A stretch of 32,302 nucleotides of DNA. Origin: a virus. The notes under the pieces were generated by a model, which was given only the letters and a program-made list of their open reading frames with translations, searched no databases and was not told where the DNA came from. The DNA is taken from the IMG/VR virus record IMGVR_UViG_3300042473_000041, positions 1-32,302 of that record, one strand, 5' to 3'. This document shows, one piece after another, positions 3,601 to 32,302 of this stretch; position 1 is the stretch's first letter, and each line of letters opens with the position of its first letter. Made by a program: the position numbers and the translations under genes.

Positions 3601-4232
3601 ATATAGCAACTGTAACTTCTAAATCAACTGCTTTTGGTACGACTACTGCGTTTAATACAACGTTTGATACTAATAAAGCAACTGATACAACCGTGTCAAC
3701 CAGTAAATCTACTGATACCTCGAAGGCTACGTCAACCAGTAAGTCAACTGCCACAGCCTACGATACTATCTTTGACACTGGCTTAAATACAACTACGACG
3801 TTTGGTACTGAAACTGCATTTGGAACGAACACTACTCGCGCGACAACTATTGGTACAAGTAGATCGACTAACTTCTTGACTGCTACAAGCAAATCAACAA
3901 CTAGTGTGTTTGATACGACGACTACATATACTACGACGTTTGGAACTTCTACTATATTCCAAACAACGACTATTGTTGCAACCAGTACCAGCCGTGATAC
4001 CACGATTGATACCAACAAAGAAACCAGCAAATCAACTTCTACCGTATTTGATACAACATATACAACGACGTTTGCAACATCCACTGTGTTCTTAACCAAC
4101 ACTGTGTTTAATACTGATACGTCGAAGACTACGACTTTTGCTACAAGTAAAACGACTACGTTCGATACGAATAAGTCTACTACAACCACATATGATACAA
4201 CAACCAGCTTTGAAACTTCTAGAAGCACGTAA
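624..4232 (+). CDS. Giant Thr/Ser-rich repeat protein, probable tail fibre or virion surface protein
   Basis: The 1202-residue protein starts two bases after the S74 fibre gene, with AAGGA 8 bases before the ATG. Residues 1-60 form a compact domain (GTISLSSIALEFGG, ISEYYRGG, GTIKFSDFYGAS) of a kind seen in structural proteins of aquatic T4-like phages. Residues of about 63-525 and 745-1202 are almost only Thr, Ser, Phe, Asp, Asn, Ala and Lys in short units such as TSKTTTF, TTTTFNTTF and TGSTSKATDTSR. Between them, residues of about 527-745 are a non-repetitive beta-rich domain (VGQVAVLFDF, LPTNWTNIAN, DKILVLITGG) resembling beta-sandwich domains of phage adhesins. Repeats run to the last residue, with no C-terminal cap or chaperone. 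A fibrous beta-structured shaft is the simplest reading; function is inferred from neighbours and composition. Confidence 0.6.
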   Translation: MPLPFSGTISLSSIALEFGGTAPHSISEYYRGGVFVANTLINAAIPTSGTIKFSDFYGASAGVATVFETSRATGTTKSTTTVFETSQTTTFDTSKTTVYATLTNLDTATSRLTDTNRLTTASTSKSTTTAFNTVFATTFVTTFNTDTAFLTNTSRTTDTTASTSNVTATSKSTTTVFDTTTTFVTSFETTYITTFTTDTVITTQTTRSTNTLVTTNFATSRATSTVFDTTTTFATTTTFNTSYATTTVFNTSQGTSRTTDTTITTTFATTTVFDTAFATTTTFNTTFATTTVFDTSQDTTKTTDTSKTTTFNTTGSTSKVTDTSRTTMFNTTGSTSKATDTSRSTVFATTTIFNTSYATTTNFDTTQGTSKTTDTSRTTTFGTTTTFNTIFATTTTFNTSYATTTTFETSQGTSKATATSRLTSYATTGSTSKTTDTSRTTTFDTTGSTSKATDTSKTTTYDTTGSTSRATDTSRGTTTIFGTTTTFSTTFNTTGSTSRATDTSRTTTYATTTTFNTTYITAFTATSIFSVDSGTTSTGSTIAIPGTAAVGQVAVLFDFGYNSTTTSVTNVLPTNWTNIANTANNTAGTGRAAFNCSYKVLASGDIGATVTGINAATQNDKILVLITGGVGVRITGVTTSFVGTTANPIDTAPANNAVTVDSSQSIVFGFYGASALPGTRNFLGFAGGVDVTQGEFTNSRTAVKYQEMPFLSAQGYINVRIGQNDAGNKNLTRGVVITLSTAEKDTTLSTSRATDTSRTTTYGTTTTFNTTFDTTGSTSRVTDTSRGTTTIFATTTTFNTTFNTSKTTVYATTTTFNTTFATSKTTTFGTTTTFNTTFDTSRTTTFDTTTAYTTVFNTSKATDTTVSTSRSTDTTGSTSKTTDTSRTTTFGTTTAYTTAFNTSKSTDTTVSTSKSTDTSKTTSFATTTTFDTTFDTSKTTTFGTTTVFDTTFDTSKTTTFGTTTTYATFFATNKATDTTASTSKATDTTKSTNIATVTSKSTAFGTTTAFNTTFDTNKATDTTVSTSKSTDTSKATSTSKSTATAYDTIFDTGLNTTTTFGTETAFGTNTTRATTIGTSRSTNFLTATSKSTTSVFDTTTTYTTTFGTSTIFQTTTIVATSTSRDTTIDTNKETSKSTSTVFDTTYTTTFATSTVFLTNTVFNTDTSKTTTFATSKTTTFDTNKSTTTTYDTTTSFETSRST
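812..2200 (+). repeat. Degenerate coding repeat array 1 (Thr-rich units)
   Basis: This part of the giant protein gene consists of tandem, imperfect units built around ACNACN(A/T)(C/T)NTTTGATAC-like sequence, encoding TTTFDT, TSKTTDTSR and TTGSTSK blocks. Units vary in length, so there is no single clean period. Thr codons mix ACA, ACT, ACG and ACC freely, so protein repetition is better conserved than DNA repetition. Confidence 0.8.
2856..4229 (+). repeat. Degenerate coding repeat array 2 (Thr-rich units, some recent duplications)
   Basis: This is the second repetitive block, running to the stop codon. Near-exact copies occur: the 38 bases beginning at 3411 recur at 3465, an offset of 54 bases (18 codons), indicating recent in-frame duplication or homogenisation. 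The encoded units are the same TTTF(D/G)TTTTF and TSK(S/A)TDT types as in array 1. Confidence 0.8.
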
Positions 4233-7642: not shown

Positions 7643-8665
7643 ATTTTCGGTCACGAGTTTTACCACGAACATTTACGCAGATATATCGTTGTATTCGGAA
7701 CGATGTTCAACAACATCGTTGTTTCAAGAAAAACAACTGCTGGCGTAGTTGATAAACGAATTAAAGTTCCTATTTCATATTCACCACGCGATAAACTATT
7801 GGCTCGAATCGAAACAGATCCTTCTCTAAGAAAACCTGACGCTGTTTCTTTGCCACGCATGGGCTTTGAGATGACATCAATGACGTATGCTGGTGAGCGC
7901 AAATTAAGCACAATTAAGAAGTTTACTGCACTTGGAACCAATGGAACCAATCGTACAATTATGTACGCGCCAGTTCCATACGATGTAAACTTTCAACTAA
8001 GCATCATGGTAAAGAACGCGGAAGATGGTACTCAAATTCTTGAGCAGATCCTTCCATTCTTTACTCCGGAGTGGACTAATACCGTTCAGCTAATAGACGA
8101 TATGGATATTAAGTTAGATATCCCGCTCGTTTTACTTTCTGTTTCTTCAGACGACACGTACGAGGGAGATTTTGAAACTCGCCGTGCTTTAATCTGGACT
8201 TTAGATTTTACGATGAAGTGTTACTTCTTTGGTCCAACAAAGACTAAGAAACTAATTAAGTTGGCAAATGTCAATTTCTTTATCGATGGATTTGACACAG
8301 CTATCGGTACTTCAAACACTGCTCTAGAAAAAGTGACAATCCGACCAGGATTAGAGCCAACAGCTAACTTAGCTGGAACGATTTCTTCTTCTGGAAATTT
8401 GGTTACAGGTTCCGCAACTTCATTTACCACAACTATGGCAGTTGGTAATTATGTAAAAGCTGCCAATCAATTCAAGCTCGTTACATCGATTGCCAATAAT
8501 ATATCCATGAGAGTTGATTCTGCATTTAACACAAACTTGGTAGCAAACAACTACCAGTCAACCTATAAAGGAACTGGTACAGCTAATTCTTCGTTGAGCA
8601 TTAGCGAAGAATACATTTTGGTCACCGATGACTGGGATTATATCGTAACGATAGAAGACGTATAA
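7643..8665 (+). CDS. 15: Tail sheath terminator / stabiliser gp15 with apparent ATT start and an inserted beta domain
   Basis: The first ATG in frame is 7703, but the frame upstream is open and reads FGHEFYHEHLRRYIVVFGTM, which lines up with the N-terminus of T4 gp15 as I recall it (MFGYFYNSSFRRYATLMGDL). AAGGAG at 7629-7634 is eight bases from the ATT at 7643, which falls exactly where the initiating Met should be; the stop of gp14 blocks any start further up. That gives 340 residues, against 272 in T4. The excess is largely a Ser/Thr-rich beta domain in the last third (GTISSSGNLVTGSATSF, VGNYVKAANQFKLVTSI). gp15 caps the finished tail and joins it to the neck. Identity is firm; the ATT start is inferred. 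The conservative alternative is 7703-8665. Confidence 0.8.
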   Translation: MFGHEFYHEHLRRYIVVFGTMFNNIVVSRKTTAGVVDKRIKVPISYSPRDKLLARIETDPSLRKPDAVSLPRMGFEMTSMTYAGERKLSTIKKFTALGTNGTNRTIMYAPVPYDVNFQLSIMVKNAEDGTQILEQILPFFTPEWTNTVQLIDDMDIKLDIPLVLLSVSSDDTYEGDFETRRALIWTLDFTMKCYFFGPTKTKKLIKLANVNFFIDGFDTAIGTSNTALEKVTIRPGLEPTANLAGTISSSGNLVTGSATSFTTTMAVGNYVKAANQFKLVTSIANNISMRVDSAFNTNLVANNYQSTYKGTGTANSSLSISEEYILVTDDWDYIVTIEDV

Positions 8666-22614: not shown

Positions 22615-23205
22615 ATGAAACAGCCAGCCCCACCAAAATCTAACCACTATGTAAGCAACCTCGAGTTCTATGCAGCGATGAAGGACTACAAACAAGCATG
22701 CCTTGATGCATCAGAACAAGGGCTACCGAAACCAAAGATACCAAAGTATATCGGTGAGTGTCTTTATAAGATAGCCACAAAGTTATCATACAGACCTAAC
22801 TTTATCAACTATTCATATCGCGATGAAATGATTGCTGATGGTCTAGAAAACTGCATCACTTATTTTGATAACTTTAATCCTGACAGATCTAATAATCCAT
22901 TCTCTTACTTTACTCAGATTATCTACTATGCGTTTCTGCGTAGAATCCAAAAAGAAAAGAAGCAAGTTTACGTCAAACATAAAGTGTATCACCAACAGAT
23001 GGTTGATGGCGCAATGCATCACCTACAAGAAGGAAACTCTGGTGAAGATTTTGACGTAGCAGTAATGGAAGACACCGACTACATTAATGATTTCGTGAAG
23101 AACTTTGAAGACAAGATCGAAGAGAAAAAGAAAGCCAAGACTGCAAAGGTCAAGAAGTCTATTGACACAGTTCTCACTCAATCATTTACTAATGACCCTG
23201 AATAG
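22615..23205 (+). CDS. 55: Late transcription sigma factor gp55
   Basis: The 196-residue protein (T4: 185) has the core of the gp55 sigma family: LSYRPNFINYSYRDEMIADG, LENCITYFDNFNPDRSNNPF and SYFTQIIYYAFLRRIQKEKK, which correspond to a sigma region 2-like helical segment that binds core polymerase and the late -10 box. The C-terminus is Lys-rich (FEDKIEEKKKAKTAKVKKS). gp55 replaces host sigma factor to read TATAAATA promoters such as those upstream of gp22 and gp23. The gene has an early-type promoter and AAGGA ahead of the ATG. The -35 element of the gp47 promoter is inside its last codons. Confidence 0.92.
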   Translation: MKQPAPPKSNHYVSNLEFYAAMKDYKQACLDASEQGLPKPKIPKYIGECLYKIATKLSYRPNFINYSYRDEMIADGLENCITYFDNFNPDRSNNPFSYFTQIIYYAFLRRIQKEKKQVYVKHKVYHQQMVDGAMHHLQEGNSGEDFDVAVMEDTDYINDFVKNFEDKIEEKKKAKTAKVKKSIDTVLTQSFTNDPE

Positions 23206-23213
23206 GGTATAAT
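23184..23213 (+). promoter_or_regulatory. gp47 promoter ATTTACTAA-N15-TATAAT inside the end of gp55
   Basis: ATTTACTAA at 23184-23192 and TATAAT at 23208-23213 are 15 bases apart; the upstream element overlaps the gp55 coding end. Only eight bases separate the -10 box from the gp47 ATG, so the predicted transcript is leaderless or nearly so. Confidence 0.7.
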
Positions 23214-23221
23214 ATCTTATA

Positions 23222-24304
23222 ATGAAAATTGCTATTTTAACTGACCAACACTTCGGTGTTCGCAATGACAACGTCGCCTTTTATGACTACCAAGCGAAAT
23301 TCTATCGCGAGGTAGTTTTACCATACATAGACGCCAACGATATTAAAGTCGTCTGGGATGGCGGTGACACATTCGATCGCCGTAAGTATATCAACTTCCA
23401 CTCGCTTAAAGCTGCCAAGGATATGTGGTTCGACGAACTGCGTACACGCAACGTTCAGCTTTATACTATCGTGGGTAATCATACTGCATATTATAAGAAT
23501 ACCAACGAAGTCAATACGATGGAGTTGCTGTTCGCTGACTACGAAAATATGCATATCGTATCCGAAGCCAAGACGCTTAACTTTGATGGACTTGACGTAG
23601 CATTCCTACCATGGATCTGCTCTGGTAATTATCAGTCGTCTATGGACTTTATTAATGACACTCCCGCACAAGTTCTAATCGGTCACCTAGAGTTGGCTGG
23701 CTTCGAAATGTATAAGGGTGTTGTTGGCAACGACCATGGCTTCGATTCAAAACTATTTGATAAGTTCGACGTTGTAATGTCAGGTCACTTCCATCACAAA
23801 TCCACCAAAGGTAATATCAACTATCTTGGTGCACCATATGAAATGACTTGGTCGGATTATAACGATCCGCGTGGCTTTCATATATTTGACACAGAGTCGC
23901 GCGAGCTGACGTTCATACAAAATCCATTTCCTATGTTTCACAAAGTCCTGTATGACGACGTGAATAAAACTATGGAAGAAGTCATCGAACAAGACTTTAG
24001 TGGTTTTAGTAATTCGTTTGTAAAGCTGATTGTTCGCAACAAGACAAACCCTTACTGGTTTGATATCGTCGTTGACAAGATTGAAAAGACTGGTGTTCTT
24101 GACCTACAAATCGTAGAAGACCATCTCAACCTCGACCTAGAAGATGACGCTGACATCGTCGACGAAGCCGAAGACACGCTGACTATCATGCGTAAGTTCG
24201 TCGCCCAGTATCTACCTGAAACTGAACAAACTATGGCTAAAGACCTTAACAACTTGCTGACTGAATTATATCAAGAAGCATTGAGCGCGGAGCGCGAAGC
24301 ATGA
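23222..24304 (+). CDS. 47: Recombination endonuclease subunit gp47 (Mre11/SbcD-like)
   Basis: The 360-residue protein (T4: 339) shows the metallophosphoesterase motifs in order: ILTDQHFG (Asp 8, His 10), VWDGGDTFDRR (Asp 49), IVGNHTAYY (Asn 86, His 87), LIGHLELAG, and VMSGHFHHKS with the final metal-binding histidines. With gp46 it forms an Mre11-Rad50-type complex that resects DNA ends for recombination-dependent replication and helps degrade host DNA. The C-terminus is acidic (LNLDLEDDADIVDEAEDTLT). It overlaps gp46 by four bases. No good ribosome binding site is close to the ATG, in line with a leaderless start. Confidence 0.94.
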   Translation: MKIAILTDQHFGVRNDNVAFYDYQAKFYREVVLPYIDANDIKVVWDGGDTFDRRKYINFHSLKAAKDMWFDELRTRNVQLYTIVGNHTAYYKNTNEVNTMELLFADYENMHIVSEAKTLNFDGLDVAFLPWICSGNYQSSMDFINDTPAQVLIGHLELAGFEMYKGVVGNDHGFDSKLFDKFDVVMSGHFHHKSTKGNINYLGAPYEMTWSDYNDPRGFHIFDTESRELTFIQNPFPMFHKVLYDDVNKTMEEVIEQDFSGFSNSFVKLIVRNKTNPYWFDIVVDKIEKTGVLDLQIVEDHLNLDLEDDADIVDEAEDTLTIMRKFVAQYLPETEQTMAKDLNNLLTELYQEALSAEREA

Positions 24305-26010
24305 TAAACTTCAAAGTAGTTCGCTGGAAGAACTTCCTGTCGACTGGCAACGTGTTTACCGAAGTCAAGCTGGATAAATCCAAGTCCACGTTGATTGTCG
24401 GTCAGAATGGTGCAGGTAAATCTACCATCCTTGACGCTATCTCGTTCGCGCTGTATAACAAACCATTCCGTAAGATTAACAAGCCGCAACTGATTAACAG
24501 CATCAATAATAAAGACGCTGTTGTAGAAATTGAGTTTACGGTTGGTCGCGATGAATATAAAGTTGTTCGTGGTATCAAACCTAATCTGTTTGAAATCTAC
24601 AAGAATGGCGCGATGTTTAATCAGGATTCAGCTAATCGTGATTACCAAGAGTTCCTAGAAAAAACTATTCTGAAACTGAACCATCGTTCGTTCTCTCAGG
24701 TAGTTGTTCTTGGTTCATCAACGTATGTGCCATTCATGCAGTTGCCAGCAAACCAACGACGCGAAGTAATTGAAGATCTACTTGACATTCAAATCTTTAC
24801 TTCTATGAACAATATTCTAAAAGAAAAGGTTGCTTCTAATAAAGTAGAAGTGGCAGATACCAAGTATGCTGCTGACCTATGTTCTGAAAAGATTGCAATG
24901 GAACAGAAGTATCTCGCAAGTGTCCGTAAAGATAAAGATACTCGTATTCAAGCCAACAATGCAAAGATTAAAGAAATCGCAAAGACTATCGTTGGACTGC
25001 GTGGGTCAATCAAAGATTATCAAAACGAGTATGTTACTCTTGAACTTGGTGTTAGCGACGAAGCTGAAGTATTACAGAAAGCTAATGATCTTTCAGATAA
25101 TCGCGTTCGTCTATGGGATCGTATGTTCTTGCTTGAGAAAGAAATCAAATTCTTTCACGACAACGAAAACTGTCCTACCTGTAAGCAGGGTATCGCGCAT
25201 GACTTCAAAGAGTCGGCGGTAAGTAACAAGAATGCTACTCTAGTTTCTATCAAAGAAGAACTAGAAATTATCGACGGCGAGCAGACTCAAGTGACTGCTC
25301 GTCTTGATAATATCAAACAAACTCGTCAAGCGATGATTAAAGCAAACGAACAAATCAAAGTAGTGACGGCTCAAATTGAATCTGAGAAACGAAACTACAA
25401 AGCACTAGAAACTGAAAATGCTTCTTTGTCCGTAGAACAAGATACAACCGAGTCGACTGCTACGTTGCTTGCGTTGAAAGAAGAACTGGCTGAGATCGAA
25501 GCTAAACGTGAGATGCTATCAAAACGAAACGCTGTTCTGTCTGCTGCTTCTGCTCTACTCAAAGACGGTGGCATCAAGACAAAGATTATCCGTCAGTATA
25601 TTCCTATCATGAATAAACTGATTAACAAGTATCTGGCTGCGATGGACTTCTTCGTTCACTTTGAGTTGGACGAACAGTTTAATGAAAAGATTAAGTCGCG
25701 CTTCCGTGATGAGTTCTCGTACAACTCGTTCTCCGAGGGTGAGAAGATGCGAATCAATCTGGCTGTATTGTTCACTTGGCGTGCTATCGCTAAGATGAGA
25801 AACTCAGCAACCACAAACCTGCTGATTATGGACGAAGTGTTTGACAGTTCGCTTGACGGTGTTGGTACAGACGAGTTCCTAAAGATTCTAAATAATCTCA
25901 CTGCGGATAATAACACATTCATTATCTCGCACAAAGGCGATGCTCTATACGACAAGTTCCATAGCATCATTAAGTTTGAGAAACAAGGCAATTTCAGTCG
26001 CATCGCATAA
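24301..26010 (+). CDS. 46: Recombination endonuclease subunit gp46 (Rad50/SbcC-like ATPase)
   Basis: The 569-residue protein (T4: 560) has Walker A GQNGAGKST at residues 34-42, a Q-loop region with FSQVVVLGSSTYVPFMQLPA, a coiled coil broken by the zinc-hook CPTC at 291-294, and the C-terminal ATPase half with signature FSEGEKMRINLAVLFTWRAI, Walker B LLIMDEVFDSSLDG and the switch His in TFIISHKGD. It clamps DNA and regulates gp47. It starts in an ATGA overlap with gp47. The coiled coil is short, as in other phage homologues. The stop is followed within one base by the next TTTTACTAA promoter. Confidence 0.95.
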   Translation: MINFKVVRWKNFLSTGNVFTEVKLDKSKSTLIVGQNGAGKSTILDAISFALYNKPFRKINKPQLINSINNKDAVVEIEFTVGRDEYKVVRGIKPNLFEIYKNGAMFNQDSANRDYQEFLEKTILKLNHRSFSQVVVLGSSTYVPFMQLPANQRREVIEDLLDIQIFTSMNNILKEKVASNKVEVADTKYAADLCSEKIAMEQKYLASVRKDKDTRIQANNAKIKEIAKTIVGLRGSIKDYQNEYVTLELGVSDEAEVLQKANDLSDNRVRLWDRMFLLEKEIKFFHDNENCPTCKQGIAHDFKESAVSNKNATLVSIKEELEIIDGEQTQVTARLDNIKQTRQAMIKANEQIKVVTAQIESEKRNYKALETENASLSVEQDTTESTATLLALKEELAEIEAKREMLSKRNAVLSAASALLKDGGIKTKIIRQYIPIMNKLINKYLAAMDFFVHFELDEQFNEKIKSRFRDEFSYNSFSEGEKMRINLAVLFTWRAIAKMRNSATTNLLIMDEVFDSSLDGVGTDEFLKILNNLTADNNTFIISHKGDALYDKFHSIIKFEKQGNFSRIA

Positions 26011-26040
26011 TTTTACTAATTGCCCAAAATAGGATATAAT
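26011..26040 (+). promoter_or_regulatory. Promoter TTTTACTAA-N15-TATAAT of the nucleotidyltransferase-glycosyltransferase genes
   Basis: TTTTACTAA at 26011-26019 begins right after the gp46 stop, and TATAAT at 26035-26040 follows with 15-base spacing. Only six bases separate the -10 box from the ATG at 26047, so transcription is expected to start at or beside the A of the start codon. Confidence 0.75.
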
Positions 26041-26046
26041 ATTATT

Positions 26047-26451
26047 ATGAAAGTAGGATTTACCGCTTCAGCTTTTGACCTGCTACACGCAGGTCATGTT
26101 GCTATGTTAGAAGAAGCAAAAGAGAACTGTGATTGGTTGATTGCTGGTCTTCAAACTGACCCGACTATCGATCGCCCAGAAAAGAACAAACCAATACAAA
26201 CTGTCACCGAAAGATTCATTCAACTTCGTGCATGCAAGTTCGTAGACGAAATCTATGTTTATGCTACCGAAGCTGACTTGATGGATTTGTTGGCAATCCT
26301 GCCGATTGATGTTCGTATTATCGGTTCTGATTACATTGAGAAAGAATTTACTGGTAAACAGTTCTGTATTGACAATAACATTGAGATTTATTATAATCGC
26401 CGAAGCCATAAACTAAGCACAAGTGAATTAAGATCTAGACTTAAAGGTTAA
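26047..26451 (+). CDS. Cytidylyltransferase-like nucleotidyltransferase (TagD/RfaE family)
   Basis: The 134-residue protein has the HxGH nucleotidyltransferase signature as LLHAGHV (His 14, His 17), preceded by the typical GFTASAFD strand-loop, and a C-terminal KLSTSELRSRL that corresponds to the ISTTxL nucleotide-binding motif of TagD-type enzymes. DVRIIGSDYIEKEFTGKQF matches the conserved late strand region. Such enzymes join CTP or ATP to a phosphorylated alcohol or sugar, giving an activated donor such as CDP-glycerol. A frame extension to 26020 would overlap the promoter and is not used. It is three bases ahead of the glycosyltransferase, so the pair may make and use one donor. Substrate is unknown. 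Confidence 0.75.
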   Translation: MKVGFTASAFDLLHAGHVAMLEEAKENCDWLIAGLQTDPTIDRPEKNKPIQTVTERFIQLRACKFVDEIYVYATEADLMDLLAILPIDVRIIGSDYIEKEFTGKQFCIDNNIEIYYNRRSHKLSTSELRSRLKG

Positions 26452-26453
26452 TT

Positions 26454-27806
26454 ATGAAAATTATGGTTGCGATGCACACCTTCAATAACTTTGGTGGCAT
26501 CATTGCTCACAACGAACAACTAATCGCTGGCTTGAAAGAACTGGGTCATGATGTTACGTTCGCTTATCTCAAACCATCCGCTCAATCCCCACGACCTGTA
26601 AACACCACCGATCTGCCAGAAGGCTATGAGTTTGGTGCTGGTACAGGTCTTCCTGTTCATCAAGGAAAGGGATGGAATGCGCCATACTATTCGTTCAAGA
26701 ATCAAGATTGTATTGACCGCTTCGTAGCTGATGCTAACAAACATGACATATTGATTTGGCAATCCATCTTTGGCTTCAAGAACAGCGAAACTGAATTGTT
26801 TACTGCGTGGAAGCCGATGATAGAAAACGTCAACGCTAAACAACTTGTTGTTATTCATGACGGTAATCTAAAGAAGCTATACAGCTGGATCTATAAGTTT
26901 AGTCATAAGTTTGCTGGTCTAGCGTGTGTGCATCCGAGTGCATACAAACAAGCTGAGTTTATGCCAGTTCCGAGAAATCTTATTCTCAATCCACAGGATG
27001 TCGAGAACAGACCAATTGCTCCAGAGTTCTCTTCACTAAAGCGACAGATTCTTTCGCTACAAACATTCAAACGTTGGAAGCGAGTTGATGACCTAGTTAA
27101 GTCTGTGCCATATATCTGCGCAGAAAAGATTATCATTGCTGGTGATGGTATCGAAAGAAACTATATGACGTCGCCAGACAAATGTAAAGAAGAGTATTTC
27201 TGTACTGCTGAGTCGGATCCAGATGCTACAACTGATATGGTTGGTAACAAGATCTGGGATAACGCTACGAAAACTGGTAGAATGGATTATATCGGTTTTA
27301 TTACAGAAGCCAAACGCGACGCTATTCTTTCTGAATCTAAATTCCTAATCGACACCTCTTGGTCTAACACATACGGCGAACACTTCAATCGTGTTGTGAT
27401 TGATGCTATCCGCGCTGGTGTCGTTCCTATCGCTAGAAACTTTGGTGTTTCCGAACGCGAGGATGGTGTTGGTATGCTACTTAAACCAAACATGAATTAC
27501 CTAATGATTCCGCACGATGCAACCCCGAAACAGTTCGGAAATCTAGTAAACGATTTTCTAAATATATCCGAGGAAGAATATAATCGTATTCGCGAAAATA
27601 ATTATAAACTTCTCAAGAAGTTTTCTCGCAAGAGAATTGCGCAACAATATATTGATTTAGCATTAGGAAATCCTGGCGGAGAGATGCCAGAGAACAAAGT
27701 TGGTTCTTTGAGTGTTGACCCGAAAGTACAACCTGTCGCAGATAAAATATGGGAAGAACACTTCGAACCTGTTGCTGTTAGCACCCTAGAAGATTTCTTT
27801 ACTTAA
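26454..27806 (+). CDS. GT-B glycosyltransferase (family 4-like)
   Basis: The 450-residue protein starts MKIMVAMHTFNNFGGIIAHN, the Gly-rich loop of GT-B enzymes, and continues EQLIAGLKELGHDVTFAYLK. The C-terminal donor domain has ILSLQTFKRWKRVDDLVKSV, KIIIAGDGIERN and TYGEHFNRVVIDAIRAGVVP, the last matching the E-x7-E helix region of family 4 glycosyltransferases, though with Asp in place of the second Glu. The tail (KVGSLSVDPKVQPVADKIWE) is an extra segment. It follows the nucleotidyltransferase by three bases and precedes the TET/JBP-like dioxygenase. Possible acceptors are hydroxylated DNA bases, a virion protein or host glycan; the island context favours the first but does not prove it. 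Confidence 0.75.
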   Translation: MKIMVAMHTFNNFGGIIAHNEQLIAGLKELGHDVTFAYLKPSAQSPRPVNTTDLPEGYEFGAGTGLPVHQGKGWNAPYYSFKNQDCIDRFVADANKHDILIWQSIFGFKNSETELFTAWKPMIENVNAKQLVVIHDGNLKKLYSWIYKFSHKFAGLACVHPSAYKQAEFMPVPRNLILNPQDVENRPIAPEFSSLKRQILSLQTFKRWKRVDDLVKSVPYICAEKIIIAGDGIERNYMTSPDKCKEEYFCTAESDPDATTDMVGNKIWDNATKTGRMDYIGFITEAKRDAILSESKFLIDTSWSNTYGEHFNRVVIDAIRAGVVPIARNFGVSEREDGVGMLLKPNMNYLMIPHDATPKQFGNLVNDFLNISEEEYNRIRENNYKLLKKFSRKRIAQQYIDLALGNPGGEMPENKVGSLSVDPKVQPVADKIWEEHFEPVAVSTLEDFFT

Positions 27807-27826
27807 TGCTTAAATTATGGTATAAT
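27797..27826 (+). promoter_or_regulatory. Dioxygenase promoter CTTTACTTA-N15-TATAAT
   Basis: CTTTACTTA (27797-27805) matches seven of nine bases of the recurring element and is 15 bases before TATAAT (27821-27826). TGG just before the -10 box could serve as an extended -10. Transcription should begin near 27833, 16 bases before the ATG, with CGGAGA as ribosome binding site. The upstream element lies in the end of the glycosyltransferase gene. Confidence 0.65.
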
Positions 27827-27848
27827 ACAATTTTGAATCGGAGAATAT

Positions 27849-29201
27849 ATGACTAAAATAATTACAGCTGACAAGTGGCTTAATTGCGAACACTTGTTGG
27901 GTACGTTCCTAGACGAATCACACTACGATCTTCTGATTGAAGAAGATTGTGATTTCTATGTTCCAAATAATACGTTGTTCCCAGGAAATGGCGAACACAA
28001 CATCGCATTCAAATTCCGTAAGGGAGTTTACACCGCCGAAGAACAACTTGGCGCATACGAAGGACTAATCAAGGGTGCTACTGAAAGTCAGAATCGTGGA
28101 CTTGCAGCAGGACCAAAAACTGATACATGCGGTGGTCGCGACTGGGTGACTGATTGGCAAACTGCAGTGCTTGACGCAATGTCGCATCCATCAGCCACAC
28201 TCGATGGTTCTGACCCAGTACAGACGTTGATTGCTGAGAAAGCCAGCTTCAAAGCTGAGTCAACTCGTGGTCTGGTTTGGCTACGCAACAAGATTACTGC
28301 TCGTCTAGAACCAAACGAAGAATACGAAGGTTTCTTTGACACTTGGTTAGCCAAGACAGTCAAGCTATCTAAAGAAGAACAAGTCAAGCAAGCCAAAGAA
28401 ATGGCTGACTGTATTTCTGGCACGACCTACGCTACTGTTGTCAACTCAGGTATCGCTGGTTTCTTTGACCGTTATCCGCGCATCCCTTATGGTCGTATCT
28501 GCGCCTACAACTGGAAACATCCAGAACTGTTTGAGAAAGCATTTCCATACTTCCGTAAGCTAGATAAGTTCTTCAAAAATCTATTACCACAACGCTATGG
28601 CGTTCAGAAAGAATATTCTGACAGGCTAGACAAGCGTTTCCGTGTCGCTGAAGATACTGTCTTTACCACGATTACTATTAACAAGAATTTCCGTACTGCC
28701 GCACATCGAGATGCTGGCGATCTTGGACCAGGATTCTCTAACCTTGGTGTCGTTACCAATGGCAAAGACTATCGCGGTGGCTATTTGGTATTGCCAGAGT
28801 TCCGAGTAGCTGTAAATATCCGCCCAGGAGATGTGTTGCTTATTGCTAACCACACAGCAATCCACGGTAATACGGAAATTCTACCACCAGACGACAACTG
28901 CTGTATGGACTGCGTTGAGCGTATGTCTATCGTCTGTTACTTCCGTGAGAACATGAAAGAACTTGGCTCGTGGGAATATGAAACTCTGCGTCGTGACTTC
29001 GTAGAAGCGCGTCGTCTGAACCAAGACCATCCTGAATGGCGTCCACTTTGGAACGGTGTATCACCTAACATGTGGGAAAGCAAAGAGTGGTATAAGTTTA
29101 TCGAAGGAATGCCAGACAAAGATGGTAAAGATATGCTTGCTAGATATCACCCAGAAGCACTTGAAACTAAACCAACTTCTCTCGAGGCATTCTTCGCATG
29201 A
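27849..29201 (+). CDS. TET/JBP-family 2-oxoglutarate, Fe(II)-dependent dioxygenase
   Basis: The 450-residue protein carries the TET/JBP oxygenase core in residues of about 265-368. AAHRDAGD holds the HxD iron ligands (His 286, Asp 288), followed by FSNLGVVTNG, RGGYLVLPE, IRPGDVLLIANHTAIHGN with the distal iron ligand (His 339), and ERMSIVCYFRENM with Arg 358 to bind 2-oxoglutarate. In TET and JBP enzymes this core hydroxylates 5-methylcytosine or thymine in DNA, and phage homologues act in DNA hypermodification. The N-terminal 260 residues are helical and mixed. The gene sits next to two glycosyltransferases and a nucleotidyltransferase. Family assignment is by motif order; DNA as substrate is inferred. 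No DNA methylase is in the window, so thymine or an externally methylated cytosine may be the target. Confidence 0.75.
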   Translation: MTKIITADKWLNCEHLLGTFLDESHYDLLIEEDCDFYVPNNTLFPGNGEHNIAFKFRKGVYTAEEQLGAYEGLIKGATESQNRGLAAGPKTDTCGGRDWVTDWQTAVLDAMSHPSATLDGSDPVQTLIAEKASFKAESTRGLVWLRNKITARLEPNEEYEGFFDTWLAKTVKLSKEEQVKQAKEMADCISGTTYATVVNSGIAGFFDRYPRIPYGRICAYNWKHPELFEKAFPYFRKLDKFFKNLLPQRYGVQKEYSDRLDKRFRVAEDTVFTTITINKNFRTAAHRDAGDLGPGFSNLGVVTNGKDYRGGYLVLPEFRVAVNIRPGDVLLIANHTAIHGNTEILPPDDNCCMDCVERMSIVCYFRENMKELGSWEYETLRRDFVEARRLNQDHPEWRPLWNGVSPNMWESKEWYKFIEGMPDKDGKDMLARYHPEALETKPTSLEAFFA

Positions 29202-29731
29202 AAGATGTAACAAGTTATAAAGGTGTAATACATGCTCTAGTGAAGGATACTGACCCTATCCTCTCACAAGAGATGCCAAGATTTGATTTTGATAATCCAA
29301 CCATCGACCCAATTCAATTAGCATACGATCTAGTTGAATCTATGCGACATCATGGTGGTATTGGTCTTTCTGCCAATCAGATCGGCTTGCCATACAGAGT
29401 ATTTGCTATGGAAGCTGTTCCTGCTCTTGTTTGTTTCAATCCTAAATTGATTGACGAATCTAGCGAGGAAATTATGTTGGAAGAAGGATGCTTGTCTTTT
29501 CCTGGACTTGGCATCAAAATTAAACGAGCGCGCCACATCAAGGTTCGTTATGCTGAACCGAGTGGCGAAATTATGACAAGAAAGTTTACTGGCATGGCTG
29601 CTCGTTGCTTTCTCCACGAATTAGACCATATGAATGGAACTAAGTATATTGACCGAGCTTCTTTCGTCCAGAAAGAACTCGCATTGAAACGCCAGAAGAA
29701 ACTGGCAAAATTGAAGAGGATATTAAAATGA
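29198..29731 (+). CDS. def: Peptide deformylase
   Basis: The 177-residue protein has the three deformylase motifs: GIGLSANQ at residues 54-61 (usual GxGLAAxQ), EEGCLSFPG with metal ligand Cys 98, and HELDHMNG (residues 140-147) with the two metal-binding histidines and catalytic Glu. It removes the formyl group from the N-terminal Met of new proteins. Deformylases are known from phages of aquatic bacteria, where they may sustain translation or organelle-like host functions. Full length suggests an active enzyme. It overlaps the dioxygenase stop by four bases and the next Sm-like gene by four, so it is co-expressed with them. Confidence 0.93.
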   Translation: MKDVTSYKGVIHALVKDTDPILSQEMPRFDFDNPTIDPIQLAYDLVESMRHHGGIGLSANQIGLPYRVFAMEAVPALVCFNPKLIDESSEEIMLEEGCLSFPGLGIKIKRARHIKVRYAEPSGEIMTRKFTGMAARCFLHELDHMNGTKYIDRASFVQKELALKRQKKLAKLKRILK

Positions 29732-30015
29732 GTGTAGAAGTAATTAAATTGACTACTGGCGAAGAAATCATTTCTGAGCTGGAAGATAAGGGCGACTCTG
29801 TAGAGTTGACCAATGCTATGTTGGTTGCTGTAAATGATGGTCGTCTAGTGTTCATCCCTTACATGCAGTACACATCTGCTGCTAAGTTTGTTACCATCGA
29901 TAAGAAGCATATTATGTTTATTGTCACGCCAGTCGAATCATTGATTGACGATTTTGAGAATGCTACTGCTAAGGTCACCAAACCTCGCAAGAGCATCGTA
30001 TCATCGGTGCCGTGA
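29728..30015 (+). CDS. Sm-like protein A
   Basis: The 95-residue protein has an Sm1-like start (VEVIKLTTGEEIISELEDKG), a central strand pair (TNAMLVAVNDGRLVFIPYMQ), AAKFVTIDKKHIMFIVTPVE as the Sm2-like part, and a C-terminal helix with a basic tail (KVTKPRKSIVSS). This is the pattern of the phage Sm-like family known from cyanophage-type metagenomic sequences. Sm folds form rings and often bind RNA, as Hfq does. It starts inside the deformylase stop (ATGA) and ends in overlap with its paralogue, indicating tandem duplication and co-translation. Confidence 0.7.
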   Translation: MSVEVIKLTTGEEIISELEDKGDSVELTNAMLVAVNDGRLVFIPYMQYTSAAKFVTIDKKHIMFIVTPVESLIDDFENATAKVTKPRKSIVSSVP

Positions 30016-30290
30016 TGGAAGTCAAACTAGTAAAACTAATTACAGGCGAAGATATTATTTGCGAACTTGAAATGACTGATGTTCAAGTAGCACATAATCC
30101 ATACTCGCTTGCCATGCACCCAGATAAAGGGTTGGTCTTGATGAAGTTCTCGCCGTATGCTATCACTGAAAAAGTATATTTCGAGAAATCTTCCATCCTA
30201 TGCATTCTTGACCCACAAGAACCACTAGTCAATCACTACAAAGAATTGACTGGTAAAATCATCACACCAAAACAAGGAATCATTGTATAA
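30015..30290 (+). CDS. Sm-like protein B
   Basis: The protein is 91 residues from ATG 30015 (overlapping the previous stop as TGATG) or 92 from GTG 30012; I prefer the ATG. It aligns by eye with Sm-like protein A: VKLVKLITGEDIICELEMTD, NPYSLAMHPDKGLVLMKFSP, EKVYFEKSSILCILDPQEPL and a helix NHYKELTGKIITPKQG. Keeping two tandem copies suggests a hetero-oligomeric ring or distinct RNA targets. Its stop overlaps the glycosyltransferase start by one base (TAATG). Confidence 0.7.
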   Translation: MEVKLVKLITGEDIICELEMTDVQVAHNPYSLAMHPDKGLVLMKFSPYAITEKVYFEKSSILCILDPQEPLVNHYKELTGKIITPKQGIIV

Positions 30291-31162
30291 TGGAGATTAA
30301 AGTAGAAATTGAAGAATTGCGCAAGCGTAAACTGTTTGTCGCAACACCTATGTACGGCGGACAATGCCACGGTACTTACTGTCGTTCTGTTGCTGACTTG
30401 ACTGCTATGTGCGTCAAGTATGGTATCGAGATGCGCGTTTACTATCTGTTCAATGAATCGCTGATTACTCGCGCTCGTAACTATTGCGTTGATGAGTTCT
30501 TACGTTCTGATTCAACTCACATGATGTTTATCGACTCGGATATCGGATTCAACCCTAACGACGTTCTGTCGTTGCTTGCATTGCAGGATGATGAATCTCC
30601 GTATGATATCATCGGTGGTCCATATCCTAAGAAATGTATCTCTTGGGAAAAGATCGTACAAGCTGTCAACAAAGGTGTAGGCGACGAGAATCCTAACGAA
30701 CTTGAAAAGTACGTTGGTGACTTTGTGTTCAATCCAATCGTTGATGCTGGCCAAACTGAAATCAAACTAAATGAACCAGCAAAGGTTCTTGAAATCGGAA
30801 CTGGCTTCATGATGATTAAGCGCAAAGTGTTCGATGAATACAAAGCTGCTTATCCGCAATACAGCTACAAACCAGACCACGTTCGCACTGCTGCGTTTGA
30901 TGGTACTCGTGAAATCCATGCTTACTTCGACTGCATCATCGATCCTGCGACGAAGCGTTATTTGTCGGAAGACTACATGTTCTGTCAGAATGTAATCAAG
31001 ATGGGCGGAACAATCTGGCTATGTCCGTGGATGGAACTACAACACACTGGTACTTACACCTTTGGTGGTTCGCTGTCTGCTCTTGCTTCTATCGGTGCTT
31101 CTGCAACTGCGGATACTGGTTTAATTAACAAGCAAAAACAAGCAGAAAAGAAGAAGAAGTAA
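30290..31162 (+). CDS. GT-A-type glycosyltransferase
   Basis: The 290-residue protein has the fold order of a GT-A enzyme: KLFVATPMYGGQCHGTYCRS at the first strand, NESLITRARNYCVDEFLRSD, then MMFIDSDIGFNPNDV with the DxD-type Asp-Ser-Asp at residues 82-84 for the metal and nucleotide sugar. DIIGGPYPKK, EIGTGFMMIKRKVFDEY and YLSEDYMFCQNVIKMGGTIW (the acceptor-side Glu-Asp) follow, and then LQHTGTYTFGG. Similar GT-A proteins occur in aquatic T4-like phages and have been linked with TET/JBP enzymes in comparative work. The C-terminus is Lys-rich (NKQKQAEKKKK). The substrate, DNA or otherwise, is not shown by sequence. Confidence 0.8.
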   Translation: MEIKVEIEELRKRKLFVATPMYGGQCHGTYCRSVADLTAMCVKYGIEMRVYYLFNESLITRARNYCVDEFLRSDSTHMMFIDSDIGFNPNDVLSLLALQDDESPYDIIGGPYPKKCISWEKIVQAVNKGVGDENPNELEKYVGDFVFNPIVDAGQTEIKLNEPAKVLEIGTGFMMIKRKVFDEYKAAYPQYSYKPDHVRTAAFDGTREIHAYFDCIIDPATKRYLSEDYMFCQNVIKMGGTIWLCPWMELQHTGTYTFGGSLSALASIGASATADTGLINKQKQAEKKKK

Positions 31163-31192
31163 TTTTACTAACAAACAACTTTAGAGTATAAT
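31163..31192 (+). promoter_or_regulatory. dsbA promoter TTTTACTAA-N15-TATAAT
   Basis: TTTTACTAA at 31163-31171 begins right at the end of the GT-A gene, and TATAAT at 31187-31192 follows with 15-base spacing. Only three bases separate it from the dsbA ATG, so transcription should begin at or even just inside the start codon; a second overlapping TATAAT (31192-31197) is also present. Confidence 0.75.
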
Positions 31193-31195
31193 ATA

Positions 31196-31441
31196 ATGAT
31201 TGAAGCTGACCGTGTAAAACTCAAGAAAGTTCTTGATGACGTTTCCAATATGATGACTATGGTTGAGGCAGAGCGATCTGCCATCAACGAAGCCATTAAT
31301 GAAGCAAGTAAAAACTTTAACATTGATAAGAAGGTCTTGCGCAAAATTGCCAAGACCTATCATAAACAAAACTTCAATGACGAAGTAGCAACAAATGAGA
31401 CATTCGTAGAAGTTTACGAACAATTGACCAAACAAGGATAA
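31196..31441 (+). CDS. dsbA: Double-stranded DNA-binding protein DsbA, late-transcription helper
   Basis: The 81-residue charged, helical protein resembles T4 DsbA (89 residues): NEAINEASKNFNIDKKVLRK followed by IAKTYHKQNFNDEVATNETF and VEVYEQL parallels the T4 C-terminal half (VDGKMFNRLLALYHKDN...VVELYDTV, as I recall it). DsbA binds near late promoters and stimulates gp55-dependent transcription. Placement beside gp45, the clamp that activates late transcription, supports this. The ATG is almost at the -10 box; GAG nine bases before could serve as a weak ribosome binding site on longer transcripts. The gene ends four bases before gp45. Confidence 0.72.
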   Translation: MIEADRVKLKKVLDDVSNMMTMVEAERSAINEAINEASKNFNIDKKVLRKIAKTYHKQNFNDEVATNETFVEVYEQLTKQG

Positions 31442-31445
31442 TATT

Positions 31446-32117
31446 ATGAAGATCTCAAGCCAAACCCTTTCCATTCTGAAGAACTTTTCTTCTATCAATG
31501 GAAACATCCTAGTTCGTGCAGGTTCAACACTGTCGACTATCTCACCGCAGAAAAATATTCTAGCTTCTGCTGTCGTTTCTGAAAACTTCCCGACCAGCTT
31601 CGCGATCTATGACCTCGGTCAGTTCCTTGGTGCTGTCAGCTTGTTCGAAGATCCTGACTTTGACTTTACTGACAAGTTCGTCACCATCTCTAGCGGTAAG
31701 CGTAGCATCAAGTATTGGTTCGCCGAGCCAAGCATGATTCTTGCTGCTCCTGAGAAGAAGCTACAACTTCCTACCGAAGAAGTTGTGTTTGATGCGTCTG
31801 CCTCTAACATCAGCGAAGTGTTGAAAGCTGCGAGCGTCCTTCAGGCTCCAGAAATCGCTGTTGTTTCTGATGGTTCAACCCAGACCAAGCTGGTTGCTAC
31901 CAACGTCAAGAACGATACTTCTAACGAATATCACGTTGATGTTGCAGTTACCAACGAAGCAAAGTTCCGTATGGTATTCAAGTCTGAGAACTTGAAGCTA
32001 ATCAGCGGTGACTATAAAGTATCCATCTCTTCGAAAGGTATGGGTAAGTTCGCCAACGAAAAGGCTGGACTTGAATACTTCATCGCAACAGAAAGCAGCT
32101 CAAAATACGGTCAATGA
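31446..32117 (+). CDS. 45: Sliding clamp gp45, DNA polymerase processivity factor and late-transcription activator
   Basis: The 223-residue protein (T4: 228) starts MKISSQTLSILKNFSSINGN, parallel to T4 gp45 (MKLSKDTTALLKNFATINSG). FAIYDLGQFLGAVSLFEDPD, IKYWFAEPSMILAAPEKKLQ and MVFKSENLKLISGDYKVSIS are further clamp landmarks. The homotrimeric ring holds the polymerase on DNA and, loaded by gp44/62, also contacts gp55/gp33 to activate late promoters. The clamp loader genes are not in the window. It overlaps the next gene by four bases (ATGA). AAGGA precedes the ATG by about nine bases. Confidence 0.93.
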   Translation: MKISSQTLSILKNFSSINGNILVRAGSTLSTISPQKNILASAVVSENFPTSFAIYDLGQFLGAVSLFEDPDFDFTDKFVTISSGKRSIKYWFAEPSMILAAPEKKLQLPTEEVVFDASASNISEVLKAASVLQAPEIAVVSDGSTQTKLVATNVKNDTSNEYHVDVAVTNEAKFRMVFKSENLKLISGDYKVSISSKGMGKFANEKAGLEYFIATESSSKYGQ

Positions 32118-32302
32118 TTCTAAACGATCGCCCACTCATCAAAGTAGTTGACAATTTCCTGACTAAGGAAGTTTGTCAAGATATCATAAATGAAGCAACT
32201 CCATTGTTGGAGCCTTCTAAGATATCGGGCGGTGAATCTGGATATCGTACAAGCAAGAGTACATGGCTATCGCATACGCATAGCCATGCTACTGTGTCCT
32301 TA
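32114..32302 (+). CDS. 2OG-Fe(II) oxygenase, prolyl-4-hydroxylase type (3' truncated by window)
   Basis: Only the first 63 residues are visible; the frame is open to the window edge. PLIKVVDNFLTKEVCQDIIN near the start and GYRTSKSTWLSHTHSH after it match the N-terminal part of prolyl-4-hydroxylase-type oxygenases (FLs.eeC.. and YRtS). The catalytic HxD/H residues would lie beyond the edge. Such enzymes are common in aquatic T4-like phages and hydroxylate proteins or small molecules. It starts within the gp45 stop. It is not of the TET/JBP subtype of the upstream dioxygenase. Confidence 0.65.
   Translation, partial: MILNDRPLIKVVDNFLTKEVCQDIINEATPLLEPSKISGGESGYRTSKSTWLSHTHSHATVSL

Follow-up and report, generated by a model that had tools for sequence, protein, structure and literature searches.

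We analysed a 32,302-nucleotide stretch of viral DNA (IMGVR_UViG_3300042473_000041, positions 1–32,302; hereafter the window), in which an island at 26,047–31,162 encodes a TET/JBP-type dioxygenase among candidate transferases. An initial annotation, made from the letters alone, had read this island as a candidate DNA-hypermodification locus. Its open reading frames (ORFs) all lie where they had been placed, intact, on one strand, and packed between gp46 (24301–26010) and dsbA/gp45. An RfaE/TagD-type nucleotidyltransferase (NTase) of 134 residues (26047–26451, plus strand; PF01467 CTP_transf_like, E 1.3e-12; phrog_7878, 2e-35) is followed by a 450-residue GT-B glycosyltransferase (26454–27806, plus strand; Glycos_transf_1 PF00534, E 3.5e-6, with 27.1 bits narrowly over the 26.4 cut-off) and a 450-residue TET/JBP dioxygenase, here TET (27849–29201, plus strand; Tet_JBP PF12851, E 4.2e-23, 81.8 bits against a cut-off of 34.9; phrog_24024, 7e-183). 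A deformylase, two small genes and a GT-A glycosyltransferase complete the run, and the gp45 sliding clamp gene lies beyond it (31446–32117, plus strand; PF09116, 2.5e-13). Profile and fold comparisons bore out the families proposed for the NTase, GT-B, TET, deformylase and GT-A. An assembly artefact is unlikely, because a 72,883-base IMG/VR contig (G001) is 99.97% identical across the full window and the same arrangement recurs in other contigs.

The protein encoded at 27849 is a TET/JBP dioxygenase by profile and by fold. The residues on which this assignment had leaned, H286, D288, H339 and R358, stand at those positions and do not vary across the 39 aligned sequences, of which the window's is one; we take the first three to be the HxD...H iron triad and R358 to be the arginine that binds 2-oxoglutarate. 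In a structure comparison, the TET model (mean pLDDT 84.0) lay nearest TET2 (Z 21.8, root-mean-square deviation 3.8, 271 aligned residues) and NgTet1 (Z 19.1), followed by CcTet (Z 18.2) and CMD1 (Z 18.0); the best AlkB/FTO-type entry, ALKBH3 (Z 14.4), was the first outside the TET group. Both checks that the initial annotation had proposed for this protein, structure and profile, therefore place it within TET/JBP. The enzyme is predicted to hydroxylate a 5-methylpyrimidine in DNA.

TET is the constant part of an exchangeable gene set

TET relatives at E values up to 1e-5 occur in 13 records of an isolate-phage collection, the nearest isolate being Stenotrophomonas phage DLP6 (TET 65% and GT-A 78% identical). 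Its island (AAY80_028 to _034) has the same frame of gp46, a variable set, TET, deformylase, two small genes, GT-A, dsbA and gp45, but carries TAGT, HAD-like and NTP-transferase/APH genes where the window has NTase and GT-B. AAY80_028, upstream of TET, is a TET-associated glycosyltransferase (TAGT; PF20691, E 1e-9). Proteins of DLP6, S-CBWM1 and locus L053 match PF20691 above its cut-off and a Cr30 protein matches below it, while neither the window GT-B nor GT-A has a match at E up to 1. AAY80_029 (L002 10274–11965), which is called a ModA ADP-ribosyltransferase in a passage of PMC5349666, has by Pfam an NTP-transferase domain plus weak similarity to APH, a content fitting sugar activation rather than ADP-ribosylation.

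Several isolate TETs are deposited as 'SNF2 DNA repair protein', namely those of DLP6 (L002 12001–13347), Cr30 (L004 12001–13329) and S-CBWM1 (L005 3729–5165). We reject this product name as a propagated misannotation: the S-CBWM1 relative and an unlabelled C48C1 homologue are Tet_JBP by profile, and the DLP6 and Cr30 relatives are so by alignment.

A profile scan of IMG/VR returned 486 TET relatives, of which the best 80, together with loci L022 and L024, the window and four isolate phages, make up a set of 87 loci; these are related rather than independent, and near-identical ones are retained in the counts. Neighbourhood clusters are single-linkage BLAST groups, which can lump families together; the ORF picker swapped some true genes for reverse-strand ORFs, missing the DLP6 TAGT, deformylase and GT-A. 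The recurrent neighbours of TET in this set were amino acid:DNA transferase (ADDT; PF18724 at 1.3e-52 for the Cr30 protein), GATase, a protein with weak likeness to amidoligases, GNATs, TAGT and a P-loop kinase (PF18751, 6e-9), along with the NTase, present in 20 loci. Where one flank extended 3 kb or more (79 loci), ADDT, kinase, TAGT or GT-B lay within 6 kb of TET in 61, and none of them did in 18. TET and its sets were found next to gp41, gp46/deformylase or gp44/62/regA, and thus appear to travel together.

In the window the exchanged segment runs from gp46 to TET (25996–27866). One relative, L011, aligns by blastn to window positions 25696–25995 (93%) and 27867–29895 (90%), and in place of the 1.9 kb of NTase and GT-B it has a 5.0-kb insert encoding GATase, an amidoligase-like protein, GNAT, an unknown protein, ADDT (assigned by clustering with the Cr30 ADDT) and kinase (by Pfam). 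Another, L017, aligns to 23001–26420 and 27859–32302, both at 94%, and a TAGT/HAD-like/NTP-transferase–APH set replaces GT-B. TET is the fixed part, and the gp46–TET segment is swapped between relatives with 90–94% identical flanks. A 16-row tree of TET interleaves set types i (window, L015) and iii (L011, L012, L020, L021), with firm support for 3 of 10 inner branches, among them the one joining the window and L009 with L020. Flank identity and the interleaved tree together indicate that one nearly identical TET has been combined with different finishing enzymes. The 72.9-kb contig G001, itself a fragment, contains neither ADDT nor kinase.

The window-type GT-B is found in 14 of the 87 loci, the window's own included. 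Seven of the 13 others are close window kin; the remaining six (L069, L071, L072, L080, L085 and L092) are distant, have TETs about 50–53% identical to that of the window, and carry GT-B beside or near TET at other genome sites. The suggested link between TET and glycosyltransferases therefore holds for GT-B, which adjoins TET and recurs near it in other lineages.

Other genes near TET include an N6/N4 DNA methyltransferase gene in L089 (6634–7296, between TET and ADDT) and another in P12024L (L114 7355–7990), after TET and an annotated glucosyltransferase gene. Sugar and cyclitol genes also occur there: a UDP-galactopyranose mutase two genes downstream in C48C1 (L003 14345–15355), an annotated phosphoheptose isomerase and glucose-1-phosphate thymidylyltransferase in S-CBWM1 (L005 6058–7139), and an inositol-1-phosphate synthase in Cr30 (L004 17293–18474). 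Cr30 gp114 (L004 20256–20894), annotated 'terminase small subunit', falls into the cluster of P-loop kinases that adjoin ADDT in TET phages; PF18751 had no match in Cr30.

No linked C5-methyltransferase was found in the TET clade

The initial annotation saw no methylase in the window, and this extends to the TET clade as searched. PF00145 (C5-methyltransferase) matched 0 of 22 TET records, which include DLP6, C48C1, Cr30 and S-CBWM1, deposited as complete genomes, and IMG/VR records that may be fragments; a hidden Markov model built from 45 phage C5-methyltransferases matched in 0 of 87 loci. The positive control for this search, phage Melnitz, scored E 2.2e-56. In the other TET type, to which Melnitz belongs, TET has an HhaI-like methylase as companion in all 58 loci whose upstream sequence covers 1.3 kb or more. 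A search for a dUMP hydroxymethylase, also proposed at the outset, ended likewise: PF00303 was matched in 1 of the 22 records (Cr30), by a true thymidylate synthase, and we reject a dNMP hydroxymethylase as the source of the hydroxymethyl handle.

Thymine is the one 5-methylpyrimidine surely present without a methylase, and 5-methylcytosine would need a C5-methyltransferase, none of which was found linked; thymine is therefore our leading candidate substrate, somewhat better than an even bet on the missing methylase alone. The initial annotation had named 5-methylcytosine as the known substrate of phage TET/JBP enzymes; the missing methylase favours thymine here.

The Melnitz row (L115 4010–8090) reads polymerase, HhaI-like methylase, TET, a 427-residue unknown protein and a P-loop kinase, and such a kinase occurs in 19 of the 41 IMG/VR loci of the Melnitz type whose flanks were long enough. 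Ploopntkinase3 was rejected as a sign of a uracil-type base, since it is weakly present beside the methyltransferase-linked Melnitz TET as well.

TET and GT-B end in polymerase-like tails

The C-termini of TET (TSLEAFFA; codons 29175–29198, plus strand) and GT-B (STLEDFFT; 27780–27803, plus strand) resemble that of the phage's own DNA polymerase (TLEDFFS). According to a passage of PMC2988020, gp43, gp55 and gp33 of T4 each bind gp45 through a C-terminus that can stand in for those of the other two; gp43 ends in SLDFLFG and gp55 in SLDFLYEAND. Both window tails fit the definition of a gp45 ligand, a hydrophobic, acidic C-terminal motif like those of gp43, gp55 and gp33, and on this likeness TET and GT-B are predicted to bind gp45.

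The tail pattern was written after the tails had been seen and went through three versions, looser, then strict, then widened. Among 850 non-redundant complete ORFs, the motif was present in polymerase (15/17), TET (45/52), GT-B (7/7), TAGT (8/10), GNAT (8/14), a second GNAT (3/4) and ADDT (8/24), and in none of 10 NTase, 15 GT-A, 7 HAD and 4 NTP-transferase/APH ORFs. Outside the named groups it occurred in 3 of 613 ORFs, two of them gp55 and the third a TET-adjacent protein weakly like glycosyltransferases; among internal decamers, 46 of 17,000 matched (0.27%). The first strict pattern selected only GT-B, TET and polymerase among the 65 ORFs of G001 and only polymerase, TET and GNAT among the 212 ORFs of the 168-kb G006. 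It matched one ORF each in OC (of 17; polymerase), Cr30 (of 41; TAGT-like) and C48C1 (of 36; TET), and none of 20 in S-CBWM1 or of 20 in phiM12, whose stretch includes gp43. The DLP6 tails, read by hand, are ATLGDFFV (TET) and SDLSSFFN (TAGT), the Cr30 TET ends in GATLF, and the S-CBWM1 TET has no such tail. It is also missing from the TETs of HTVC112P (32 kb) and P12024L (36 kb), which we take not to be T4-like. In Melnitz, TET ends in NLNDFLGE and the polymerase in TLEDFFG.

We also scored the last 12 residues of ORFs for similarity to the tail of their own polymerase. In G001, GT-B ranked first of 64 non-polymerase ORFs, a 320-residue ORF second and TET third. In Det7 (195 ORFs; polymerase tail ...VNLLSMMGKKG), the next ranks were taken by a 69-residue ORF, a 5-hmdU DNA kinase 2 (PF18747), ADDT and a 5-hmdU kinase helical protein (PF18723); gene 36 was identified as a kinase once the high rank of its tail was known. 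For phiW-14 (213 ORFs; polymerase KLGAFFV), a prediction was set down before the tails were computed, at the same time as the annotation was retrieved; with the polymerase counted, ADDT (GLGSFFR) ranked third, gp55 fifth and the kinase (TLAQFAP) eleventh. Two further phiW-14 proteins end in GLGGFFKG (gp036, missed by the ORF picker) and SLGGFAAT (gp33). Each of the five Det7 and phiW-14 modifiers matched its own polymerase best of the four tested, the phiW-14 kinase by one point, and the 11 modifiers of 4 genomes had a mean percentile of 0.875, with 0 of 200,000 permutations as high.

Polymerase-like tails also mark as candidate sliding-clamp ligands Det7 DET7_120 (L192 34862–35071) and two phiW-14 proteins, the nuclease gp032 (L194 26496–27356) and gp099, a DUF4326 protein (L195 31188–31487).

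Partner enzymes and neighbouring genes

The initial annotation had proposed a TagD-like enzyme making a donor suited to phosphoalcohol transfer. The nucleotidyltransferase assignment stands, and the enzyme likely makes an activated donor; a phosphoalcohol was rejected as first choice. The NTase scores 74 bits against rfaE_dom_II (cut-off 181.5) and 49 bits against glycerol-3-phosphate cytidylyltransferase (cut-off 165.4), both below cut-off, and a sugar donor fits better because RfaE domain II is the nearer. We also rejected the NTase as TET-specific: its relatives occur in 135 phage records, and among the 40 listed just two, both Cr30, are in the TET set.

Only part of the two-glycosyltransferase island survives. 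GT-B tracks TET, occurs with it at other genome sites and bears the clamp-type tail, and it likely decorates a hydroxymethyl base in DNA. The 290-residue GT-A (30290–31162, plus strand; phrog_1574, 1.6e-69) is weak in Pfam (GT2, E 0.05; Anp1, E 0.003), though its fold upholds the GT-A call, Foldseek pairing its AlphaFold2 model (mean pLDDT 73.8) with GT-A enzymes (GalNAc-T2, E 7e-7). We rejected it as a partner of TET, because the gene also adjoins gp45 in phiM12, OC and I1_18, which have no TET match in the isolate-phage search; it is probably a lineage gene beside gp45, outside the TET module.

The genes between TET and GT-A (29198–30290, plus strand) are the peptide deformylase (29198–29731, plus strand; Pfam E 2.6e-36) and two small genes, putatively Sm-like in the initial annotation, with below-cut-off Pfam matches to DUF6561 (E 0.009 and 0.0018). 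All three are present inside the island as described, and are probably bystanders to the module: none is among the three strict tail matches of G001, and deformylase lies beside gp46 in OC and I1_18 too.

Elsewhere in the window, a 1202-residue ORF (624–4232) consists mostly of Thr/Ser-rich repeats (TTTFDTS-like) and by eye is probably a tail or fibre protein. Directly behind gp45, a 184-residue ORF present in 11 loci (32114–32302, continuing to 32668 in G001) has a start that, by eye, may resemble a 2-oxoglutarate–Fe(II) prolyl-hydroxylase-type protein.

Discussion

Polymerase-like tails on TET and GT-B, and on the kinase and ADDT of Det7 and phiW-14, lead us to infer replication-coupled hypermodification. 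We propose, with a probability of roughly 0.6, that the window belongs to a T4-like phage and carries a module for hypermodifying DNA after replication, in which TET and GT-B dock on gp45. Within existing phage DNA, TET would hydroxylate a pyrimidine, most likely thymine, at its 5-methyl group, giving 5-hydroxymethyluracil; the NTase would make an activated donor, probably a nucleoside diphosphate sugar; and GT-B would move the sugar onto the hydroxymethyl group, leaving a residue like base J or like glucosyl-5-hydroxymethylcytosine that would block host nucleases. The C-terminal tails would hold both enzymes at the fork via gp45, as the polymerase tail does, so that they would act on nascent DNA. 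A fuller version, in which a fixed TET converts thymine of newly made DNA to 5-hydroxymethyluracil, sets that add sugar, or an amino acid through kinase and ADDT, are swapped behind it, and TET and the finishing transferases dock on the clamp by tails that are copied from the phage's own polymerase and co-vary with it, is tentative, and we hold it at somewhat under even odds.

A number of observations weigh against this proposal. No modified base has been reported in the literature for any member, as far as we have seen. Not every enzyme beside TET is tailed, the motif being found in 0 of 20 kinase, 25 GATase, 15 amidoligase-like and 13 '431-aa' ORFs, and the looser pattern matched 7 of 28 kinases, 3 of 26 GT-As, 2 of 29 amidoligase-like proteins and 1 of 31 deformylases. 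In DLP6 the first strict pattern matched the polymerase alone among 205 ORFs. The 320-residue ORF of G001 (window 7703–8665) outscores TET in tail similarity; in G006 the ADDT, GNAT and kinase tails rank 44, 77 and 127 of 207, and one tail-tube protein and one baseplate protein come close to TET. The NTase family is, as noted, common in phages. T4 glucosylation gives a mixed precedent: alpha-glucosyltransferase co-purifies with gp45 and beta-glucosyltransferase does not, and the glucosylation ratio is mostly not set by clamp binding, according to parts of PMC13216743. The C-termini of both T4 enzymes lack the motif, so a tail would be one of several routes to the clamp; the alpha enzyme also differs in acting on pre-made 5-hydroxymethylcytosine. 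Finally, DLP6 DNA is listed as restriction-enzyme resistant in a table of a 2021 review, part of which we cite (PMC8228603), which supports modification and does not prove it. The link is weak, because other S. maltophilia phages in the same table are also listed resistant and because, in the portion of the original paper that names 18 restriction enzymes, the outcome sentence is garbled (PMC5349666).

The strongest rival differs in the base. Here TET would oxidise 5-methylcytosine made by the host or by an unrecognised methyltransferase, both possible sources, and GT-B would glycosylate the resulting 5-hydroxymethylcytosine. Phages are said, in a passage of PMC12730594, often to encode C5-methyltransferase, TET/JBP and glycosyltransferases that jointly make glycosylated cytosine, and the TAGT-like protein of Cr30 matches phrog_842, labelled beta-glucosyl-HMC-alpha-glucosyltransferase. 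Set against this are the absence of PF00145 from all 22 records, four of them deposited as complete genomes, and the lack of any PF00303 gene beyond the Cr30 thymidylate synthase. The active site can be read both ways. Two residues after Y364, the window clade has Arg (R366 in the window; 79 of the 83 loci where the pattern was found), whereas methyltransferase-linked TETs have Asp there in 34 of 43 pattern matches, the other nine being out of register (57 sequences); TET2 places the His of its YQH motif opposite. D291, three residues past the metal-binding Asp, is common to the window and the methyltransferase-linked TETs, and at this position NgTet1 has an Asp that contacts the cytosine amino group. 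With D291 in both types and R366 differing, we rejected the active site as a readout of the base and did not use the base contacts of TET2 and NgTet1 as proof. Cytosine is overall a serious but lesser candidate, at about one chance in three.

The other rivals concern function rather than base. That the tails are a chance or compositional feature and not clamp ligands, which would be compatible with DNA modification, gains from the shortness of the motif, its background rate in internal decamers, its post hoc and once-widened definition and the similar tails on G006 structural proteins and the G001 320-residue ORF; we nevertheless think it improbable, since the motif is so rare outside the named groups, two of the three exceptions being gp55, since in two further lineages its form follows that of the polymerase and since no permutation reached the observed percentile. 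Still less probable is a role of the glycosyltransferases and NTase in altering the host's surface or capsule so as to fend off co-infection, with TET unrelated. Pelagimyophage glycosyltransferases are read in this way in a passage of PMC7029224, and RfaE-type NTases belong, by family name, to lipopolysaccharide heptose synthesis; GT-B, by comparison, recurs by TET at different sites, has a polymerase-like tail and is block-swapped with DNA-transferase sets. For the GT-A gene the host-surface explanation may still hold. We consider it very improbable that TET acts on RNA or protein, for example tRNA: a weak PHROGs match (6.5e-8) labelled queuine tRNA-ribosyltransferase would suit that role, while the nearest folds are DNA-acting TETs, the neighbours include ADDT, TAGT and kinase, and the tail is of clamp type.

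The proposed clamp-docked module shares features with several known systems. Burke et al. reportedly described, in 2021, phage TET with C5-methyltransferase and glycosyltransferases, and work by Iyer in 2013 may already have foreseen part of the TET neighbourhood. Among titles and abstracts on phage TET/JBP and on the clamp in DNA modification, we found no methylase-less, set-swapping TET family and no clamp-type tails on TET or hypermodification enzymes. Passages of PMC12730594, which cite that 2021 work, treat TET-based phage hypermodification as known for cytosine with a methylase, and a jumbo-phage survey notes, in the part cited here, that TET/JBP is absent from jumbo phages (PMC7824862). 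The C5-methyltransferase-coupled phage TETs share with the window the TET/JBP domain, the glycosyltransferase link (the adjacent GT-B) and presumed DNA hypermodification. The window clade differs in lacking the methyltransferase in all 22 records, in its exchangeable sets, which include ADDT and kinase, in the Arg described above and in a longer TET (450 residues, against 328 in Melnitz). Kinetoplastid base J, made by JBP and a glucosyltransferase, would follow the same logic of hydroxylating thymine in DNA and then glycosylating it; the window system is instead phage-borne, has a clamp-type tail and another glycosyltransferase, and its thymine activity is predicted. The 5-hydroxymethyluracil-DNA kinase/ADDT phages Det7, phiW-14 and M6 resemble the TET phages in that ADDT occurs in many TET sets and, for Det7 and phiW-14, in the polymerase-like tails of their kinase and ADDT proteins. 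They differ in having a divergent PF00303 gene, that of phiW-14 being annotated as dUMP-hydroxymethylase-like, and are not among the 13 isolate TET records; the kinase family of the TET sets, PF18751, was not found in M6, phiW-14 or Det7.

If the proposal is right, phages would contain a TET-family enzyme that hydroxylates thymine within DNA, a point relevant to how base J and TET arose, and exchanging a single gene block would let a phage alter the coat on its DNA. The C-terminal signature would then couple hypermodification to replication and allow new DNA-modifying enzymes to be sought from sequence alone; since tails of this kind also occur on hydroxymethyluracil kinases and ADDT in phages unrelated to this one, they could help to find enzymes of this type that are as yet unknown.

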